This document shows positions 1 to 20,698 of a stretch of 20,950 nt of DNA, in pieces (the stretch's first letter is position 1; each line of letters opens with the position of its first letter). Under the pieces are notes generated by a model. The model was given only the letters and a program-made list of their open reading frames with translations. It ran no database searches and was not told the DNA's origin. The DNA lies in IMG/VR virus record IMGVR_UViG_3300020467_000070, positions 1-20,950 of that record; one strand, given 5' to 3'. The translations under genes were made by a program, and so were the position numbers. This DNA is from a virus.

Positions 1-2287
1 TATTATAAGTATTAGTATTATCAGTATCAAAAAGAACCTTATAACTGCTACTATTTATTTGAATTTCATTATTCGTAGTAGTAAGAATCGCTGCTTGACC
101 ATTAGGGAATGTAAGAGATTGATTACTTACTGCCGCCCAAGTTAAGCCACCTGTATTACCAGATTGAGCTGATAAGAAATATCCATTAACTGGACTATTA
201 CTTACCTTTAATTTAGCTTCACTTACAGCATCAGATTGTAATTTAGCTTCTGATACTGTGTTGTCATTTGGTGTACCTATGCCAACAGCAGATCCACATT
301 GAGTTACAAATAAGCTAGATCCAGCTGCTGGAGCTGTACAGAATTTAATTCCGTTGGCACCTTCTAAATAAAATCCTTCATTACTTGCATTGTATGAACC
401 ACTGTTGGGTTTCTGTATTACACCATTAAGACTAACTATAAGTTGTCCAGCACTTGTTACATTAGCAGCTGAAGTGTCATCTCTTAAATCGTATGATACA
501 ATACTACCATTAAATGTAGGTGTGCCTGATGTAGCTCCGTCAGGTACAACTGTTAATAGTTTAAAATCACCAACTGAAGTAACAGCATCATATTGTGTGT
601 TACCTAAGTCATAGACTTTCATTACATTAGCTGACGTATCAAACCAAAGGTCTCCGTCTCCTAGGGATGAACCGTCAGGATGAGTACTAGGAGCACTAGC
701 ACTTACTTGGTATCTGTCGTTAAAATCACTAACAAGTGTTTGTGCATTACTTACGCCTGCTGAGTCTACAACTTGTCTATGAAATACATAAGTATGTAGT
801 GTAGAGGTTGTTTCTACTAATATACCTAATCCAGCTGCTATAGTTGAGCTAGCTGTTAAACCATTAATAGTAATTGTAGCATTGCTACTTACGTTACCAT
901 TAGATATTGTAGCCACACCACTGCCGTTAGCAACAAGGTTAGCTGCTAAAGCTTTAATACTAACAATAGTACCAGCTCCATCATTGATGTCAGGGTTGGC
1001 GTCTGGGAAGTTGTTTTCATTAGGTATGGGTACAAAACCACCTACCTCTGTTACAACTTCTACAATACGCTCATTAACAGCTTGAGCTGATGGTATCTGT
1101 ACATCAGATGCACTACCACTAATAGTTGTAACTATACTTTTACCATCTAATAAGTTAAGTTCAGTTGTGGATGCAGTTACACCATCAAGTACTTCTACTT
1201 CAGCTTGAGATAAATCAGCTAAGGCACTAGCGGTACCACTACCCATAGTACCTAGCTCTGTAAGCTCAGAATCTAGTGGTTGTTTACCGTCTAGCTGTGG
1301 TTGTATAGAGCTACTAACTCCATCAACATAATTGATTTCTGCTGTAGATGCTGTTACACCGTCTAGCAAATTTAATTCTGTAGTGTCAGCTGTAACACCA
1401 TCTAACTTGTTTATTTCTGCTGTAGATGCAGTTACACCATCAAGTATATTTAACTCAGTGGTATCTGCTGTAACTCCGTCAAGTTTGTTAATTTCACCTG
1501 TAGTAGCTGTAACACCATCCATGATGTTTATTTCTGCTGTTGTAGCAGTTACACCATCTAATATGTTTAACTCTGATGTAGTTACAGTAGCATCATCTAA
1601 GATTGCTAATTCAGTTGTAGTTAAGTTATTAATAGTACCTGTTGTCTGTATATTTTGACTACCAAAATCAGGACTTATTTTTGTACCATCAATAGCAGCT
1701 GACGCATTTACATCAGCATTTACTATAGTTCCGTCTGCAATATCTGTAGAGGTAACTGTTCCGTCAGCTATCATAGTTGATGTAACGGTTCCAGTATCTC
1801 CAGTTGTTATAACTGTACCTGTTACGTTAGGTAGAGTTATAGTTCTATCTGCTGTAGGGTCGGCTACAGTCAAGGTGGTTTCATATGCATCATCAGTTGC
1901 ACCTTCAAATACTATGTCAACGTCTTCTCCCATATTGAGATCACCGACCATAGTACCGCCGAGAGCACTGATATAACGACCATTAACTTCCTGTGTAACG
2001 TATAAGTTCTGTGTGAAGTTGTCGTTAAGATCTTCTGATTTTATAGCTGAACCAGCATAGAATGTAGCTGATAGGCTGTCAATACCTGTCTCTCTGAATA
2101 TTTTGATTTTGGCTCCGTTAGCTGGAGCAGTATTAAATTGTACTGTCGTTGCATTGGCTAATGTAAAAGCCGTTGTATCGACTGCATCAAGACTACATTT
2201 TACGTCTGACGCCTTAAGATATGGAAATGTGAAAGAGTAATTGGTGGTGGAGCCATTACCCGTATAAGAGTTTTGTGTAACAGCCAT
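1..2287 (-). CDS. T7 gp17-like tail fibre, C-terminus beyond window
   Basis: The frame is open from the ATG at 2287 to the left window edge (762 codons, no stop), so the receptor-binding C-terminus is missing. The first ~110 residues look like the gp17 N-terminal domain that docks fibres to the tail: a YTGNGSTTNY start, an APANGAKIKIF strand, then a GSAIKSEDLNDNF segment typical of marine phage fibres. A run of 13-residue repeats follows (1307-1609), then a region with GGFVPIPNE, a GDLWFDTS segment near 640-665, and a second SLNGV...APAAGS module near 291-490. The role is host recognition at the virion tail. The gene starts 5 nt after the gp16-like stop with AAGG upstream of the ATG. The family assignment is by recognised motifs, not by alignment. 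The receptor cannot be inferred. Confidence 0.88.
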   Translation of the reverse strand, partial: MAVTQNSYTGNGSTTNYSFTFPYLKASDVKCSLDAVDTTAFTLANATTVQFNTAPANGAKIKIFRETGIDSLSATFYAGSAIKSEDLNDNFTQNLYVTQEVNGRYISALGGTMVGDLNMGEDVDIVFEGATDDAYETTLTVADPTADRTITLPNVTGTVITTGDTGTVTSTMIADGTVTSTDIADGTIVNADVNASAAIDGTKISPDFGSQNIQTTGTINNLTTTELAILDDATVTTSELNILDGVTATTAEINIMDGVTATTGEINKLDGVTADTTELNILDGVTASTAEINKLDGVTADTTELNLLDGVTASTAEINYVDGVSSSIQPQLDGKQPLDSELTELGTMGSGTASALADLSQAEVEVLDGVTASTTELNLLDGKSIVTTISGSASDVQIPSAQAVNERIVEVVTEVGGFVPIPNENNFPDANPDINDGAGTIVSIKALAANLVANGSGVATISNGNVSSNATITINGLTASSTIAAGLGILVETTSTLHTYVFHRQVVDSAGVSNAQTLVSDFNDRYQVSASAPSTHPDGSSLGDGDLWFDTSANVMKVYDLGNTQYDAVTSVGDFKLLTVVPDGATSGTPTFNGSIVSYDLRDDTSAANVTSAGQLIVSLNGVIQKPNSGSYNASNEGFYLEGANGIKFCTAPAAGSSLFVTQCGSAVGIGTPNDNTVSEAKLQSDAVSEAKLKVSNSPVNGYFLSAQSGNTGGLTWAAVSNQSLTFPNGQAAILTTTNNEIQINSSSYKVLFDTDNTNTYN
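1307..1609 (-). repeat. Tandem 39-bp in-frame repeat (13 residues) in the tail fibre
   Basis: Seven full units lie end to end at 1571-1609, 1532-1570, 1493-1531, 1454-1492, 1415-1453, 1376-1414 and 1337-1375, with a degenerate part-unit at 1307-1336. The consensus is (L/I)N-x-LDGVTAxTxE. Codons differ between copies while residues hold, so the repeat is kept at protein level. Units beginning LN and IN alternate in the inner part of the run. One further copy and a half (VLDGVTASTTE then LNLLDGK) lies downstream near 1150-1215. Such repeats are familiar in marine phage fibres and probably form part of a trimeric shaft. Confidence 0.9.
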
Positions 2288-9865: not shown

Positions 9866-12466
9866 TTAAGTCCTCCTGTAAAATCTAGGTGAGTATATTC
9901 CTTCCCACATCATAGAGTTAAGAGAGACAGGGAACGGTGAATCGTTAAATAATCGTAGTGTAAAATTATCTGTTTTCTGGTGTATAGGTAAAGTAAATAC
10001 TGTTTGATCTGATACAGCAATATCATTAGCTAAATATTGATCTGCTAATGCAACTGGATTAATACTATACCATTCTTCAAGATATATCAGAATCTTCACA
10101 CCGTTAGCAGGTGCAGAATCAAATGTAATCTTGGGTACAGTACCGCTTGTAGTATCTATAGTAAAGGCTGTAGTTACCACATTATCAAGTTTAACTTTTA
10201 CCTGATCGTCGTCTACATAACTTAAATCATCATCTACCCAGTTATATACTGTAGTAGATCCATCACCAATGTACTCACGTTTACCTTGACGTATACCTTT
10301 AGATTTTAATTTAAAACCCATAACTCCCGATAACCCCACAGCAAACTTCATTCGAGCTATTGTAAGATTAGCTGAGAAGTCACTGATTTTCATATCATCG
10401 TCTACCTTGTAATAAGTCTTAGGTAATACTACATCAAAGTCATATTTATATCCTACTATAACATCACTCGCCACACTTGTTAAGTTTTTAAATGGTACTT
10501 TAAAATATGTGTTACCACTCTCTACTACACGTTCTGGAGATATAGTAAATCCCGATTCAATAAATTGACCTGTAGCTGTAGTACCTTTAATAACTATTAC
10601 AGGGGTCAAGTTAGTTGCATCGTTGTAAGGAATAAAACATTTAGAAAATTCATTAGTGGAATCCCAAACTACTGAGCTAGCTGTAGCATATAAATCTATA
10701 CATGGATTTAGTCTTTGACCATCATTATTAACAATAATAGCATCATCAGGACTCTGACTAAGACTTGCTCTACTAAGTGTAAACTGTCCGCCCTGTTTTG
10801 TGACAGCAAAAAATTCATCAGAATCTGCTGCTATAGTTTGTACAGTACCGGGTGCTTGCCAGTTAAACCATGTTTGTAGTCTTACATTATTATCTTCAGA
10901 ATACTGTCTAAAGAAATATATGTATCTACTGGCTTGTCCTGAGAATGCAATAAATTGGTTTTGTGCACTAGATATAAGTGTATCCATTGTAGATGGAATC
11001 CACTCGTTTACAACCTTACCTATGTCAGCTACTTGTGGGTTTTCGTTTTCTCCACGTGTGACCATAGCGAAGACTCTAGTATAACTAGGGGTTTTACTGA
11101 TAAAGTTAATTGTAGTACCAGTATCGACAGGGTCAATAACCGTATCCATTTCATAGTTAGCTATTGTCCGTATAACTGTTTTAGTTGGTGTTAGTATACC
11201 ATCATTAGACCCCATAAGAAACTGCTGATTAGCACTAAATAATACAAGACCTTGCGTAGATGGTATTACACTATGAAGTGCAACAGGTTTAACTGTACTA
11301 GCACTTAAATCAATAGGATCTGCATCTGTAACAACCTGTGCGGAAGTATGATAAAAGTTAAAGAACTTAGCTGATTGACTCATGGATACTGTGTCACCAG
11401 ATAAAAAACCTAGTCTGTTGTTATGAAAAAAAGACTGAGTTATTTTACTACCTACAAATGATGGATGAGCATTAGTCTCATCATCCCCTACAGTTCTAGC
11501 ATCATAGGTAACACGCTGAAATGTAAAGTTATTAACACTTGTATTTACTAATTCATGTGGCATAGTAGCATTATTTAGCCCTGTAGATGTATCAGGAGCT
11601 AATGTTTCTGCCCAGTAACCCGGTCCAGATGTGCTATTAGTAGCAATATATTTTAGGTAATATGCTTTAGTTAATGCACCACTATTAATAATTTTAACTA
11701 TATGATTATGTACTGACTCACTTGGTAGTTCATCTAGTGTAGCAACTTGATCTTGAAATACTGTTAATTGATTAGCGTAAGGTCCACCTGTACCTGTAAG
11801 TGTAAAAGATGCATTACGTGTTAAACGTAGACTATCTTTTAATTTAGTAGTAGTTAAACCTGATACATTTAAAGCATCAATAGCTGTCTTTATTTTAGTT
11901 AGTGCATCAGAGTATGTGTCATCACTATCTGTAGTTACTGTCCAGTTAGATCCAGCTACAGAACCACTATATACTGTACTGGTAGAAATACCTGTAAGCT
12001 TATACGTACCTTGTCTATTAGTATTAAATGTAGGGTCAGCATTCTTGGCTACAGTTGTAGTTTTGTTAGTAACTATAGATTTATCTTGTATAGTAAGCAC
12101 ATCATAATCTGTACGTACTCCTGTAAGGTATGCCTGAGCTCCTGTACCGTACGTAATAGTACATGCGGCGAAGGTTGCAGCATTCCATATAGCAATGGCT
12201 CCTGTAGAGCCTCCTGATGCTGGTGTAATACATCCTATATATTTTTCTGTTTCAGTTCTTGTTATAAAGAACCACTTAGAGTTGTCATATGTAGTGCCAG
12301 TACCTAGATTTCCTATATGTTGAAACCCCGGTCTTTTAGTAAGACCGAAGGTTGGATCAGGATAGCCGTTGATACACTCCTCGACTTGACCGGGAAGTTT
12401 CTTATCATCAGATTGTCTAGATACTCCACCAAGATAATCGTCAACTCGCTGAGTAACTGCTGGCAT
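9866..12466 (-). CDS. Tail tubular protein B / nozzle (T7 gp12-like)
   Basis: This 866-residue protein (T7 gp12 about 794) directly follows the gp11-like gene. It opens with a typical gp12 start (QRVDDYLGGVSRQ, then ECINGYPDPTFGLTKRPGF) and contains a DVLTIQDKSIVTNKT strand near residues 110-130. gp12 forms the tail nozzle through which DNA leaves. Residues ~732-798 (10073-10273) hold a module that closely resembles the N-terminus of the tail fibre in the same window (YIGDGSTTVY ... APANGVKILIY), then a short C-terminal segment ending RFYRRT. The ATG overlaps the previous stop (TAATG). Its last Arg codons, AGG AGG, form the ribosome binding site of the next gene. Confidence 0.9.
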   Translation of the reverse strand: MPAVTQRVDDYLGGVSRQSDDKKLPGQVEECINGYPDPTFGLTKRPGFQHIGNLGTGTTYDNSKWFFITRTETEKYIGCITPASGGSTGAIAIWNAATFAACTITYGTGAQAYLTGVRTDYDVLTIQDKSIVTNKTTTVAKNADPTFNTNRQGTYKLTGISTSTVYSGSVAGSNWTVTTDSDDTYSDALTKIKTAIDALNVSGLTTTKLKDSLRLTRNASFTLTGTGGPYANQLTVFQDQVATLDELPSESVHNHIVKIINSGALTKAYYLKYIATNSTSGPGYWAETLAPDTSTGLNNATMPHELVNTSVNNFTFQRVTYDARTVGDDETNAHPSFVGSKITQSFFHNNRLGFLSGDTVSMSQSAKFFNFYHTSAQVVTDADPIDLSASTVKPVALHSVIPSTQGLVLFSANQQFLMGSNDGILTPTKTVIRTIANYEMDTVIDPVDTGTTINFISKTPSYTRVFAMVTRGENENPQVADIGKVVNEWIPSTMDTLISSAQNQFIAFSGQASRYIYFFRQYSEDNNVRLQTWFNWQAPGTVQTIAADSDEFFAVTKQGGQFTLSRASLSQSPDDAIIVNNDGQRLNPCIDLYATASSVVWDSTNEFSKCFIPYNDATNLTPVIVIKGTTATGQFIESGFTISPERVVESGNTYFKVPFKNLTSVASDVIVGYKYDFDVVLPKTYYKVDDDMKISDFSANLTIARMKFAVGLSGVMGFKLKSKGIRQGKREYIGDGSTTVYNWVDDDLSYVDDDQVKVKLDNVVTTAFTIDTTSGTVPKITFDSAPANGVKILIYLEEWYSINPVALADQYLANDIAVSDQTVFTLPIHQKTDNFTLRLFNDSPFPVSLNSMMWEGIYSPRFYRRT
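9872..9877 (-). promoter_or_regulatory. Consensus ribosome binding site inside the tail tube B stop region
   Basis: The minus strand reads AGGAGG, six bases upstream of the gp14-like ATG at 9865. The same six bases are the AGG AGG Arg-Arg codons that end tail tube B, so the site is both coding and translational signal. It is the strongest Shine-Dalgarno match I see in the window. Confidence 0.8.
10073..10273 (-). other. Fibre-type GDGSTT...APANG module inside the nozzle gene
   Basis: Residues ~732-798 of the nozzle protein read YIGDGSTTVY, then KLDNVVTTAFTID, then FDSAPANGVKILIYLE. The fibre N-terminus (2084-2266) reads YTGNGSTTNY, SLDAVDTTAFTL, FNTAPANGAKIKIFRE in the same order and spacing. 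The shared core includes GSTT, TTAFT and APANG. A looser third version lies in the distal fibre (about 291-490: SLNGV, then CTAPAAGSSLFV). This is probably a small beta domain. Confidence 0.75.
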
Positions 12467-13086
12467 TATCGTTGTAAAGCGTGAAATGGTTGATAGCTTT
12501 GATAGTAGTTTTGAGCGTCTTGTGGATGACCAAACATTGTAAACTGCCCTTGGCTAGTTTCGTATTCAGTTGCTAAAGCTCTTGCTTCTATCTCTTGAGA
12601 TTTAAGTCGTGTGTATTGATCATCGTCTCCTACTATTCTACCAGACACAAGGGTAGCTGCTCTGGCTTTGATGTAATTTTGTATAGGTTCTGGAAGATCT
12701 ATAAAGTCAAACTCCCAGACTACATCACATTCTATAGGACTATACGTCCATTCAAACGTATGATTCTGTCTGTCATATAACTTACCACTTCGACGTACAG
12801 CATGGTAAGGTTTATTCTGTGCGTTTTCTGTTAGTTTTATTTGTATTATATTATTAGGTATCAATATTTCATTATTAGTATCTTTTGTAAACTCATAATG
12901 ATACTCTTTATTAAAAGTCCAGCCCTCTGATTGTACCTCTCGGGACACCTGTAACAGTGTATCATAAGCAATCGCAACTTCCGGGTTGGTTTGGTCTAGT
13001 GTAGTTACAGGAGCCTGACCACATGATGTGAGTATCTGGTTTATAGCTGGTAGCTCTTGTGTAGCATTTGTGGTTGGAAAAGGCAT
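12466..13086 (-). CDS. Tail tubular protein A (T7 gp11-like)
   Basis: The 206-residue product matches T7 gp11 (about 196) in size and place, between capsid and gp12. It reads like the gp11 family: an N-terminal helical part (LPAINQILTSCGQAPV), then EVQSEGWTFNKE near residue 55, an LYDRQNHTFEW segment, and FDFIDLPEPIQNYIKARAA in the C-terminal half. gp11 forms the ring between portal and nozzle where fibres attach. The ATG lies only a few bases after the U-tract of the intrinsic terminator and has no Shine-Dalgarno. Message reaching it must therefore read through the hairpin or be initiated or processed there. It overlaps the nozzle start by one base (TAATG). Confidence 0.88.
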   Translation of the reverse strand: MPFPTTNATQELPAINQILTSCGQAPVTTLDQTNPEVAIAYDTLLQVSREVQSEGWTFNKEYHYEFTKDTNNEILIPNNIIQIKLTENAQNKPYHAVRRSGKLYDRQNHTFEWTYSPIECDVVWEFDFIDLPEPIQNYIKARAATLVSGRIVGDDDQYTRLKSQEIEARALATEYETSQGQFTMFGHPQDAQNYYQSYQPFHALQR

Positions 13087-13128: not shown

Positions 13129-14298
13129 TTAAGCGTTAGCTGGATATGTTGTACCGAACGCAGCATTACCTGTAGATCCAGTAGCAGCACCAGCGATTAA
13201 CTCAACGCAAGCAGCAGGGTTTAAGAAGTCTGCTCCCATTGCGAGTCTACCGAGAATCACATCACCTTGGTATACCACTGAAACGTCTCCGCTTGTTATC
13301 TGAACCTGTGGTCCGATAGCTTCAACAACACCAGCTCCTTCCTTTTGGAAGATTAAGCCGCAGCTGTTAGCGAAGTCAGAGGCATTACCATAGTTGTTGT
13401 TGATACCAGTTACAGAAGCTCTACCGTCTTCAGCTGATTCACCAACGAATGATCCTACGTTTCCGGGGCTTGTTACACCGGGGTTTGTTGCAGATGCAGA
13501 ACCATACTTAGTACCGTATGAGCCAAAGAATGGAATGTTCATTGACTTGTAGATCTTGATGCCTGCAATTTCAATGATTCCGTTACCTGACTGTAACGCA
13601 GTACCTTGTGTGTCTCTATTGATAAGACCGTTAGAACCAACACCTTGTATTAATTCGTAGTACTGTCTTGGGTTCAACACAGCAACACGTCCTTCAGAGC
13701 TTACTCCTTTCTCGTCTAGTGCAGCAGCTGCATCGTAGAAAGCATTGATTAGAGAAGCTGGAACGTATGCGTCAGATGCTTGGTTGTTTGTACCAACTCT
13801 GATCTGTGTTCCGCCGGGCTCGACGAAGTTTGTTTTAGAAACTGGAGAAGCTTGTCTAGCACCTTTAGCGATAGCTCTAAAGATTAGTCTATCATATTTC
13901 TGTGCAAGAGCATATCCAATCTTCTTGGAAATCTCTCCTCTCAATTCATAATGTGCTAGTGTTTCATCTAGCTCATATACAAACGCTGAACTGATTAATA
14001 GGTCATCGATTGTAATGGTTTTCTCAGCAACTGGTGGTGCACCATCGGTGTTACCAAGAATGCTGTTTCCGGGTACGTGGTACTCGGCTTTTGTGTGTCC
14101 AGTGTAGACGAACTGAAGTGACTTACCGTTTGTAAGTGTTCTCTTCATTACAAGGTCTCTAGCTATTGCGTTGTGCTGGAAGCCTTTAAACATCTCTCCA
14201 CTGAACAATTTAAGGTAAAGTGCACGGGCGTCGTTTGCACTATTCAGTTGACCCGGGCGTGTAAGAGCCGTGGTCAATGTACTGTTCTGTTGAGCCAT
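13129..14298 (-). CDS. Major capsid protein (T7 gp10-like)
   Basis: This 389-residue protein matches the T7 gp10A family in length and in its opening (LTRPGQLNS, ALYLKLFSGEMFKGF, QHNAIARDLVMKRTLTNGKS). Further family-like segments are KAEYHVPGNSIL, ITIDDLLISSAFVYELDETLAHYELR, and the core around VLNPRQYYELIQ and GIKIYKSMNIPF. It forms the icosahedral shell with an HK97-type fold. It lies downstream of scaffold but is separated from it by six non-T7 genes. The ATG has no Shine-Dalgarno; a TATAAA box lies about 20 bases upstream in the longest non-coding stretch of the window, and the gene is followed by a strong terminator. Both suggest it is expressed as its own strong unit. No gp10B-type frameshift extension was looked for beyond the stop; the terminator lies right after it. 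Confidence 0.94.
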   Translation of the reverse strand: MAQQNSTLTTALTRPGQLNSANDARALYLKLFSGEMFKGFQHNAIARDLVMKRTLTNGKSLQFVYTGHTKAEYHVPGNSILGNTDGAPPVAEKTITIDDLLISSAFVYELDETLAHYELRGEISKKIGYALAQKYDRLIFRAIAKGARQASPVSKTNFVEPGGTQIRVGTNNQASDAYVPASLINAFYDAAAALDEKGVSSEGRVAVLNPRQYYELIQGVGSNGLINRDTQGTALQSGNGIIEIAGIKIYKSMNIPFFGSYGTKYGSASATNPGVTSPGNVGSFVGESAEDGRASVTGINNNYGNASDFANSCGLIFQKEGAGVVEAIGPQVQITSGDVSVVYQGDVILGRLAMGADFLNPAACVELIAGAATGSTGNAAFGTTYPANA

Positions 14299-16142: not shown

Positions 16143-16901
16143 TTATACTGGATCAAGTCCTAAATAGTATTGGTCTACTAATCTTTGTTCAGCTAGTTGT
16201 CGGGCTAAAGGGTTAGTTATTTTGCGGATTTGTTTTAATGCAGCGTCATACTCGTCCTCTGTAATCACGTTACCATCACCTACTGTTTTCAGAAATGGTC
16301 CACCAGAGATTAACATACTTTGATTCTGCTGATACTGCTGAATTTTATTCTTATAGTCCGGTCCTAAGATACGTTCGTAATCAGAATCATTTAACGTTTT
16401 ATCCTTCCTAAGTTGTTCTATTAAGCTCTTTTCATCTCTAGGCTCACCAAAATGTTCTGTATGGTGAACTAGATCTTTGGGACCAAATCCGTCCTTAAAT
16501 CTAAGCGTCTCAAAATTGATTCTACCAGCCCCAAAGTTGGGCATTACGGTCTTTTTCTCTTTACCGGTGTAGTAATCCGTGTCTGTATAAATTTTGACTG
16601 GCGATCTAGGTCCGGCAGCTATCATCATATTATTTTGTTGTGATGCGTCAGCTTTTGGGAAGATCCAACCTCTAAGATAAGGTGGAACTTCATCTCTATT
16701 ATTTGGTAGAACTCCTGAGTCGGGTGGTAAACCTCTTTCAGTTCTCCAGTTTCTTAACCAAGCATCAGCATCTTCTTTGTAGCCCGCTTGAAGAGTACCT
16801 CTATTCCAGCCACCACTTATTCTAGGAGGTATGCTTAATTCTGTACCAAGTTGTTTCTGAATTGAAAGACTATTTGCCTCTGCCATTGTGCGGATATCCA
16901 T
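16143..16901 (-). CDS. Hypothetical protein, 252 residues, between scaffold and hli
   Basis: I do not recognise this protein. It is soluble, with no signal peptide or membrane span, rich in charged and aromatic residues, and has a His-rich spot (DLVHHTEHFGEPRDE, near residue 145-158) and a Gln-rich helix (KIQQYQQNQ) before a helical C-terminus ending LGLDPV. The start has no Shine-Dalgarno but lies 2 bases after the 34-residue gene stop. A second Met at residue 6 is possible. It has no T7 counterpart and belongs to the block inserted between scaffold and capsid. Its place in the late region suggests a virion or assembly function, but this is inference only. Confidence 0.8.
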   Translation of the reverse strand: MDIRTMAEANSLSIQKQLGTELSIPPRISGGWNRGTLQAGYKEDADAWLRNWRTERGLPPDSGVLPNNRDEVPPYLRGWIFPKADASQQNNMMIAAGPRSPVKIYTDTDYYTGKEKKTVMPNFGAGRINFETLRFKDGFGPKDLVHHTEHFGEPRDEKSLIEQLRKDKTLNDSDYERILGPDYKNKIQQYQQNQSMLISGGPFLKTVGDGNVITEDEYDAALKQIRKITNPLARQLAEQRLVDQYYLGLDPV

Positions 16902-19342: not shown

Positions 19343-20698
19343 TTATACGAATTGAGAAAAATAATCTCTGTTAAAAATTTGTCTTTGACTAAGTGGGCGG
19401 ATGTTTTGTATTGATTGTAATCGGGCAGTATAATTAGGTGATCCATATATACTCATCTGTTGATTATATGCTTGGTTCTGTATGTTCTGTAAGTTCTGTA
19501 AGTTAGTACCACTTCCACTTGCTTGTGGTATAATTGGAGGTACTGCTGCTGCTTGGGATGTCTGTGATATTGGTAGTTGTCTTACTCCTTGTGCACCAAC
19601 AAGTCTACTTCCACGACTTCGATTTTGTTTAAGAACATTAGATGGGAAGTTAGGGTTATAACCTAAGTATCTACGCTGTGCTTCTTCAGCTACCGAGTTG
19701 ATTTTTAGATCAGGTAGCATGTTGATTACTGGAATCTTATTTTTAAATGTGTTAATTCCTTTAGTTATTGTAGCACCTAGTGTATCGGCATCAAACATAT
19801 CACTGAATCTCAGATCTCCACCTTCTGATAACATTTTATTAGAAGGAGTACTACTAAATACTCTACCTAATCTATCACTTTCCGCTGCGGATAGTCTGAA
19901 GTTACCTCCTATGTTAAGACCACCAGATGTAGTATCCATGCCTAAGCCTTGACGAATAACGCTGTCAAGTCCAGTCGTACTTGTATATGGAGAGGATGGT
20001 GTCGAACCAAGTCCAGTAAGTTGTGTCGGATCTGCTGCTGCTATTAAAGTGCCGGAAGTGTTAGGTGCACTAACAAGTCCTTTGCCTGCTTCTTGTATCT
20101 GTTTAAACAATCTTGAACCGGGCTCTAAATCATAGTTCTGAGGATTATCCCTCATTTTTATAATCTGATCTTTGGTTCTAAATACCCCATCACCTACATC
20201 TATATCGTTGCCAAACAAACCTGATCCAGCAGCGAATGAACTTGCTACGTTTTTATCAGTAGTCAGGTCATTTCTACCAGCTTCATTGAATCGTGCACCA
20301 CGAGAACCTGACATCCTGAGACTATCAGAAAAACTAGGTCCTGTTGGAGCTCCGGGAGCAAAAGGATTACCTTTCATTGCTCCTTCAAATGCAGAGTAGT
20401 CAATTTTACTTAAAGGTGTATCAAACTCTTTCTTCATCTCACCAGTTTTCACACCTTGATTAGTAGGTGCTCTGTTCAGTGGGTTCTTAGCTCCTCCAGT
20501 TACCTTACTAAAACTAAGCCCAGCTTTCTCAATAGCTCTTGCTTCAGATTTAGTGTAATTCTTTTTAGTACCGCCGAAAGTTTGTACTCTTTTACCTGTT
20601 TCTTTTGCAATCCTCTTAAAATTAGCGTGACGTTTAGCCGCAGCCTCTTGTAATTTAGTCCTCTTTTTCTTTGGTCTTGATTTTTTTTTACCACCCAT
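19343..20698 (-). CDS. Hypothetical Lys-rich/Gly-Ser protein just upstream of the portal
   Basis: I cannot assign this 451-residue protein to a family. The first ~45 residues are strongly basic (GGKKKSRPKKKRTKLQEAAAKRH). The body is rich in Gly, Ser, Asn and Pro with short repeats and looks partly disordered; the C-terminus is Gln/Asn-rich (LQNLQNIQNQAYNQQ) and ends DYFSQFV. T7 has the virion protein gene 7.3 in this position, also with a Lys-rich start, but that is only ~99 residues, so the comparison is positional and compositional. A virion-associated or head-tail accessory role is a guess. The ATG follows the upstream stop by 3 bases; GGAG in the end of the upstream gene (20705-20708) is its likely ribosome binding site. 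Confidence 0.85.
   Translation of the reverse strand: MGGKKKSRPKKKRTKLQEAAAKRHANFKRIAKETGKRVQTFGGTKKNYTKSEARAIEKAGLSFSKVTGGAKNPLNRAPTNQGVKTGEMKKEFDTPLSKIDYSAFEGAMKGNPFAPGAPTGPSFSDSLRMSGSRGARFNEAGRNDLTTDKNVASSFAAGSGLFGNDIDVGDGVFRTKDQIIKMRDNPQNYDLEPGSRLFKQIQEAGKGLVSAPNTSGTLIAAADPTQLTGLGSTPSSPYTSTTGLDSVIRQGLGMDTTSGGLNIGGNFRLSAAESDRLGRVFSSTPSNKMLSEGGDLRFSDMFDADTLGATITKGINTFKNKIPVINMLPDLKINSVAEEAQRRYLGYNPNFPSNVLKQNRSRGSRLVGAQGVRQLPISQTSQAAAVPPIIPQASGSGTNLQNLQNIQNQAYNQQMSIYGSPNYTARLQSIQNIRPLSQRQIFNRDYFSQFV

Follow-up and report, generated by a model that had tools for sequence, protein, structure and literature searches.

The 20,950-base window (the whole stretch of DNA that was analysed) covers part of a T7-like cyanophage genome, in which psbA and a high-light-inducible gene, both named from sequence, lie beside the head and tail genes. 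The genes listed in Table 1 are encoded on the minus strand, as are those of the internal virion proteins. We also noted two open reading frames without assigned function on this strand: one of 252 aa (16143-16901) between the high-light-inducible gene and the scaffold gene, and a lysine- and serine-rich one of 451 aa (19343-20698) directly upstream of the portal gene.

Table 1. Tail-related features of the window, with positions in the window and the residues of the encoded protein.
Feature	Position	Strand	Basis or remark
Capsid protein	13129-14298	-	
Adaptor (gp11, tail tubular protein A)	12466..13086	-	Pfam Tube PF17212, E 4e-36
Tail nozzle protein (gp12, tail tubular protein B), 866 aa	9866..12466	-	Pfam Phage_nozzle PF25675, 560 bits
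Platform strand before insertion, nozzle 712-727, ...VMGFKLKSKGIRQ	10286..10333	-	Aligned to the equivalent strand of module-free nozzles
Inserted module, beta-barrel of fibre-N-terminus type in platform-domain hairpin, nozzle residues 728-798	10073..10285	-	Alignment, hhalign, fold
Platform strand after insertion, nozzle 799-815, WYSINPVALADQYLAND	10022..10072	-	Aligned to the equivalent strand of module-free nozzles
Tail fibre	2-2287	-	Cut by window end
Homologous barrel of fibre N-terminus, fibre residues 6-67	2087..2272	-	Own-genome match E 3e-10; PF03906 at fibre residues 5-109, E 4e-15
Fibre helix segment after barrel, fibre residues ~70-110	1958..2080	-	No counterpart in nozzle module
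Candidate remote third copy in distal fibre, fibre residues ~591-665	293..517	-	hhalign

The window nozzle was matched by phmmer to the solved nozzles 8i4m and 6r21, and its full-length AlphaFold model (pLDDT 84) aligned with T7 gp12 (9jyz_P; VIA Z 36.4, 754 residues) and with the P-SCSP1u nozzle (VIA Z 33). The full-length profile match and the propeller and platform fold place this protein in PF25675. It shares both with T7 gp12 and P-SCSP1u gp23 (VIA Z 33-36), but these two nozzles have only a short turn at the site where the window nozzle carries the module. The extent of the module (nozzle 728-798, positions 10073-10285) is slightly wider than the 10073-10273 given in the initial annotation.

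The module resembles the N-terminus of the tail fibre encoded in the same window. The nozzle has one copy each of GSTT (at 736), TTAFT (765) and APANG (785), and the fibre repeats these motifs in unchanged order (at 12, 38 and 54). The equal spacing that had also been claimed for them did not hold, the nozzle having extra short stretches at 745-747 and ~774-777. A BLOSUM62 local alignment of nozzle 729-797 with fibre 5-66 scored 113, compared to a mean of 28 (sd 5, maximum 53) for 2000 shuffles, and when the window was searched with this segment, only the module itself and the fibre N-terminus (E 3e-10) came up. Profiles of 14 nozzle modules and 14 fibre N-termini matched over 61 columns (hhalign probability 99.7, E 1e-26). 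Moreover, when the nozzle-module HMM was run against the 7407 open reading frames of the first set of loci, it recovered about 57 fibre N-termini, most with E 1e-8 to 1e-19, and beyond these nothing but weak matches to distal-fibre repeats (E 0.02-0.09). The Pfam family PF03906 matched all 14 nozzle modules (best E 3.7e-10), although the window module itself (E 0.0026, 17.9 bits) fell below the Pfam cut-off of 25.2. The best matches of the module profile among solved structures were tail fibres of T7-like phages. Thus, we conclude from these alignments and profiles that the nozzle module and the fibre N-terminal barrel are homologous.

The homology ends at the last barrel strand. A helix belongs to the solved fibre N-terminus (PMC10575957), and this segment of the fibre is without a counterpart in the nozzle, where the module sits internally and departs from the PF03906 layout of a fibre N-terminus followed by the docking helix. 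A looser copy in the distal fibre had also been reported in the initial annotation; it matched the nozzle module with an hhalign probability of 95 and the fibre N-terminus with 78, while its pairwise comparison was not significant, so that it is at best a remote relative of the module. Between the N-terminal and distal parts, the fibre has a run of ~14-residue repeats (TTELNILDGVTAS...) at residues ~235-330 (window 1290-1590, minus strand).

The predicted fold of the module agrees with this relationship. The module was modelled alone, from 66 nozzle sequences and zero fibre sequences, as a compact beta-barrel (pLDDT 88.4). Its best matches in solved structures, each covering the full barrel, were the fibre N-termini of P-SCSP1u (8i4m_M residues 1-81; Z 9.2, 2.4 Å, 73 residues), HRP29 (Z 8.9), LME-1 (Z 8.9) and T7 (7ey9_a residues 4-82; Z 8.6), as the initial proposal of a shared fold implied; these chains were taken as fibre N-termini from residue ranges, entry titles and further searches, and in the case of LME-1 from the title alone. 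The best Foldseek match had an E of 0.002 and a TM of 0.78, and among predicted viral structures the first matches were a tail tubular protein B from a marine virus and cyanophage fibres (E ~5e-6). Thus, the modelled module has the fold of the solved fibre N-terminal barrels. It agrees with the T7-type fibre N-terminus (PF03906; T7 gp17, P-SCSP1u gp28) in fold and in strand order across the whole barrel, and the 14 modules match the profile of that family, although the window copy scores below its cut-off; in contrast to that domain, which begins a trimeric fibre, it lies inside a hexameric nozzle protein and has no helix.

We found that the module is an addition to the nozzle rather than a general part of it. 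In an alignment of the nozzles of 7B11-B, S-CBP3, DSL-LC07, S-CBP1, P-SSP7, Syn5, T7 and the environmental genome S28-C3, the module forms a single block between ...FKLKSKG and EWY..., which S28-C3 carries and for which the other seven have a short turn of 7-10 aa. The initial annotation had proposed to check for the module in T7 gp12 and in other cyanopodovirus nozzles: it is absent from T7 gp12, present in one clade of cyanopodoviruses and absent from P-SSP7, Syn5, S-CBP1, S-CBP3 and S-B28. Across 279 distinct nozzles, site length was bimodal, with 7-10 residues in 149, at least 71 residues in 130 and none between, numbers that depend on the queries chosen and differ from natural frequencies. 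The S-RIP1 nozzle, read in the frame holding its C-terminus, also has no module; its gene (L086:2059-4591) is unannotated and has its start and end in different frames, possibly a frameshift in the gene or in the sequence. Absence of the module from T7, P-SSP7, Syn5 and the 149 short nozzles led us to reject it as a general part of all gp12 proteins, and it is not a regular part of the PF25675 family. We considered that the likeness might be one of chance among Gly/Ser/Thr-rich beta strands, or of a gp12-wide part, since the fibre profile also weakly picks up antibody light chains and the motif is therefore of common make-up. The shuffles, the profile match, an HMM search that specifically recovered fibre N-termini, the agreement in fold and the absence of the module from most gp12 proteins leave this explanation with almost no probability, and we rejected it.

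The distribution of the module on a nozzle tree (63 rows, module columns removed, T7 as outgroup) required three changes, all forced by well-supported branches. On this rooted tree, the history reads as one gain after the split of S-CBP3, followed by two losses, one in the S-B28/7B11-B lineage and one in L190, where the distinction between gain and loss is set by the rooting (on a long T7 outgroup branch) and not by the count of changes. The losses were exact: ...LQQTGRLPYELKF...FYIKEW... was replaced by ...LQSNGRSEW..., with flanks 87-90% identical. The module has been kept in most sampled members of the clade, its core residues are strongly conserved, and its median dN/dS is 0.18, compared to 0.15 for the rest of the nozzle. 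Judged by these substitution rates, the module is under purifying selection. It is also less variable than nozzle residues 106-280, the most variable stretch, which together with this selection points to a folded, structural role and away from a receptor tip that changes quickly.

When the modules themselves were placed in a tree, the fibre copies all fell in one clade (100/95) with the nozzle copies on the other side, a main split that is the only trustworthy one in a tree of so few columns. Since the fibre and nozzle copies are in separate clades, there is no sign of recent exchange between them, and we rejected a recent duplication or gene conversion within the genome. The swapping of adaptors between tail proteins, raised as a possibility in the initial annotation, likewise received no support from these clades. 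The same annotation had spoken of a duplication of the fibre fold into gp12. The barrel fold is general to T7-like fibre N-termini, and so this can be retained in the sense of an old shared origin of the domain, but not as an event within this genome.

The module has itself received inserts. In five relatives (L035, L055, L065, L066 and L074), the APANG loop of the first module holds a nested second barrel, related both to the nozzle module (E 6e-13) and to the fibre N-terminus (E 2e-12). The nested module, though clearly related, has its own long branch, and a simple tandem copy of the first is unsupported. In three others (L121, L132 and L133), the first loop of the module is interrupted by an unrelated insert. 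These nested and other inserts suggest that the region is a surface loop open to additions more than a close-packed interface, which weighs against the buttress discussed below. The insert of the latter three, ~70 residues of the type SGSGTGMTV...GSGY..., has two origins on the nozzle tree and resembles stretches of phage head and baseplate proteins (phrog_697, E 3e-9). Two of the nozzles with a nested barrel (L065 and L066) also have an insert of ~57 residues after the equivalent of window residue 106, which is like the CBM5/12 chitin-type carbohydrate-binding module with an E of 4e-5, just under Pfam's cut-off.

To place the module on the tail, we relied on the alignment to solved nozzles, which puts the insertion between R736 and E738 of P-SCSP1u, i.e. 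at D737 (T7 ~724-726). In P-SCSP1u, D737 of the nozzle platform hydrogen-bonds N24 of the adaptor, the helical bundles of the fibre touch both the adaptors and the nozzle platform, and the fibre helix bundle, with ~15 hydrogen bonds, makes most of the docking contacts (PMC10575957). The third fibre barrel makes no hydrogen bond to the nozzle and so leaves a contact free (PMC10575957). Since the site corresponds to an adaptor-touching residue, the module is expected at the seam between adaptor and nozzle, close to the fibre root, where the fibres attach, and the adaptor gp11 is its expected neighbour in the virion. This mapping upholds the initial placement of the module near the fibre attachment. 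With six nozzle subunits and six fibre trimers, T7-type symmetry would give one module per fibre trimer, and thus six extra barrels per virion.

If the module and the fibre barrel formed a like-to-like docking pair, as the initial annotation suggested, the module would be a fourth barrel beside the fibre trimer that helps to attach or orient the fibre. The common fold, the location at the seam, the single module expected per trimer and the contact left free on the third fibre barrel all agree with such a pair. The sequences of modules and fibres point the other way. Modules showed no preference for their own fibre, which was outscored by, on average, 46% of the fibres of other genomes, and co-variation of module and fibre beyond the nozzle background was negligible (partial correlation 0.12, permutation p 0.036), such that we rejected module-fibre co-evolution as essentially absent. 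Moreover, the module is missing the docking helix, and in the S-B28-type lineage, the one of the two loss lineages in which the fibre is readable, the module-free L092 and L150 keep a fibre N-terminus near-identical to that of the module-bearing L097. Thus, these results speak against a docking pair, and we regard this explanation as unlikely.

Location, symmetry and fold favour a role at the fibre seat, and when these are taken with the evidence against pairing, we prefer, tentatively and at somewhat less than even confidence, to read the module as an accessory buttress at the seam, by the fibre root; docking comes second, followed by adhesion and by a passenger domain. The module might instead bind glycans, as one of several small beta domains of the nozzle that hold host surface sugars before injection. 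The CBM5/12-like insert elsewhere in two nozzles, the second insert inside the module of three others and the recurrence of similar barrels in distal fibres are in keeping with adhesion. Against it, the CBM match falls under Pfam's cut-off, the module lies distant from the nozzle tip, at the adaptor end, and its rate of evolution is only a little above that of the rest of the nozzle and below that of residues ~106-280; we consider this improbable. We are equally doubtful that the module is a stable barrel which recombination brought into a permissive loop and which is retained as foldable and harmless. Since two lineages have lost the module, it can be dispensed with, as either a passenger or a buttress could be, and the further inserts in the same loop region could be read as a sign of a passenger too, but retention in most sampled members of the clade, the low dN/dS and the conserved core speak against one.

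As a whole, an old platform insertion that acts at the fibre seat is the best explanation, one to which we give about even weight. A fibre-type barrel without the helix was inserted into the adaptor-facing platform hairpin in the ancestor of one marine cyanopodovirus clade; purifying selection has acted on it since, some lineages have added to it, and at least two have lost it, with the single gain and the losses read from the rooted tree. In the virion, the barrels would lie beside the fibre root at the adaptor-nozzle seam, where the module may pack against the adaptor or the fibre root and steady the fibre seat, without being essential for attachment. A more speculative extension, which we think rather unlikely, is that the nozzle co-opted the fibre base domain as a fourth barrel per seat that holds or tilts the trimer and tunes the trigger for nozzle opening, with lineages gaining and losing it cleanly.

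Fibre N-terminal barrels are well known, as are T7-like nozzles, and Ig-like and other small accessory domains occur inserted in phage virion proteins. The module is similar to the Ig-like insertions in being a small beta domain that is variably present among relatives; unlike them, it is a member of the fibre-base family of the phage itself and is found in the nozzle platform. We found no description of a fibre-type barrel in the nozzle platform, gained once and repeatedly lost, in the searchable literature, whose coverage is incomplete. The nearest structural precedent is in the nozzle of cyanophage A4 (PDB 9k09 chain U, residues 740-832; L351:29973-33020, minus strand), which has a barrel of the module's fold (Z 8.5, 2.4 Å, 73 residues). 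A sequence comparison of this barrel with the module found no similarity, and the A4 barrel comes after the propeller, a position taken in T7 gp12 by the fibre-dock barrel of that protein, in contrast to the module in the platform hairpin. Judged from domain order, it is probably the fibre dock of that phage, and we rejected it as an independent case of module insertion.

The window nozzle is a clear example of a T7-like phage whose tail tube has acquired a fibre-base domain, at a site that could be mapped; among natural relatives, the module occurs in zero, one or two copies. These natural variants offer a comparison for the coupling of fibre position to nozzle opening in T7-like phages, and the material for it includes module-free isolates, among them S-B28 and 7B11-B, and their module-bearing relatives from environmental DNA. 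Elsewhere in the nozzle, P-SSP7 (L089) and Syn5 (L090) have large inserts (35-101 residues) after the equivalents of window residues 170 and 191, within a variable region that is another hot spot for added domains.
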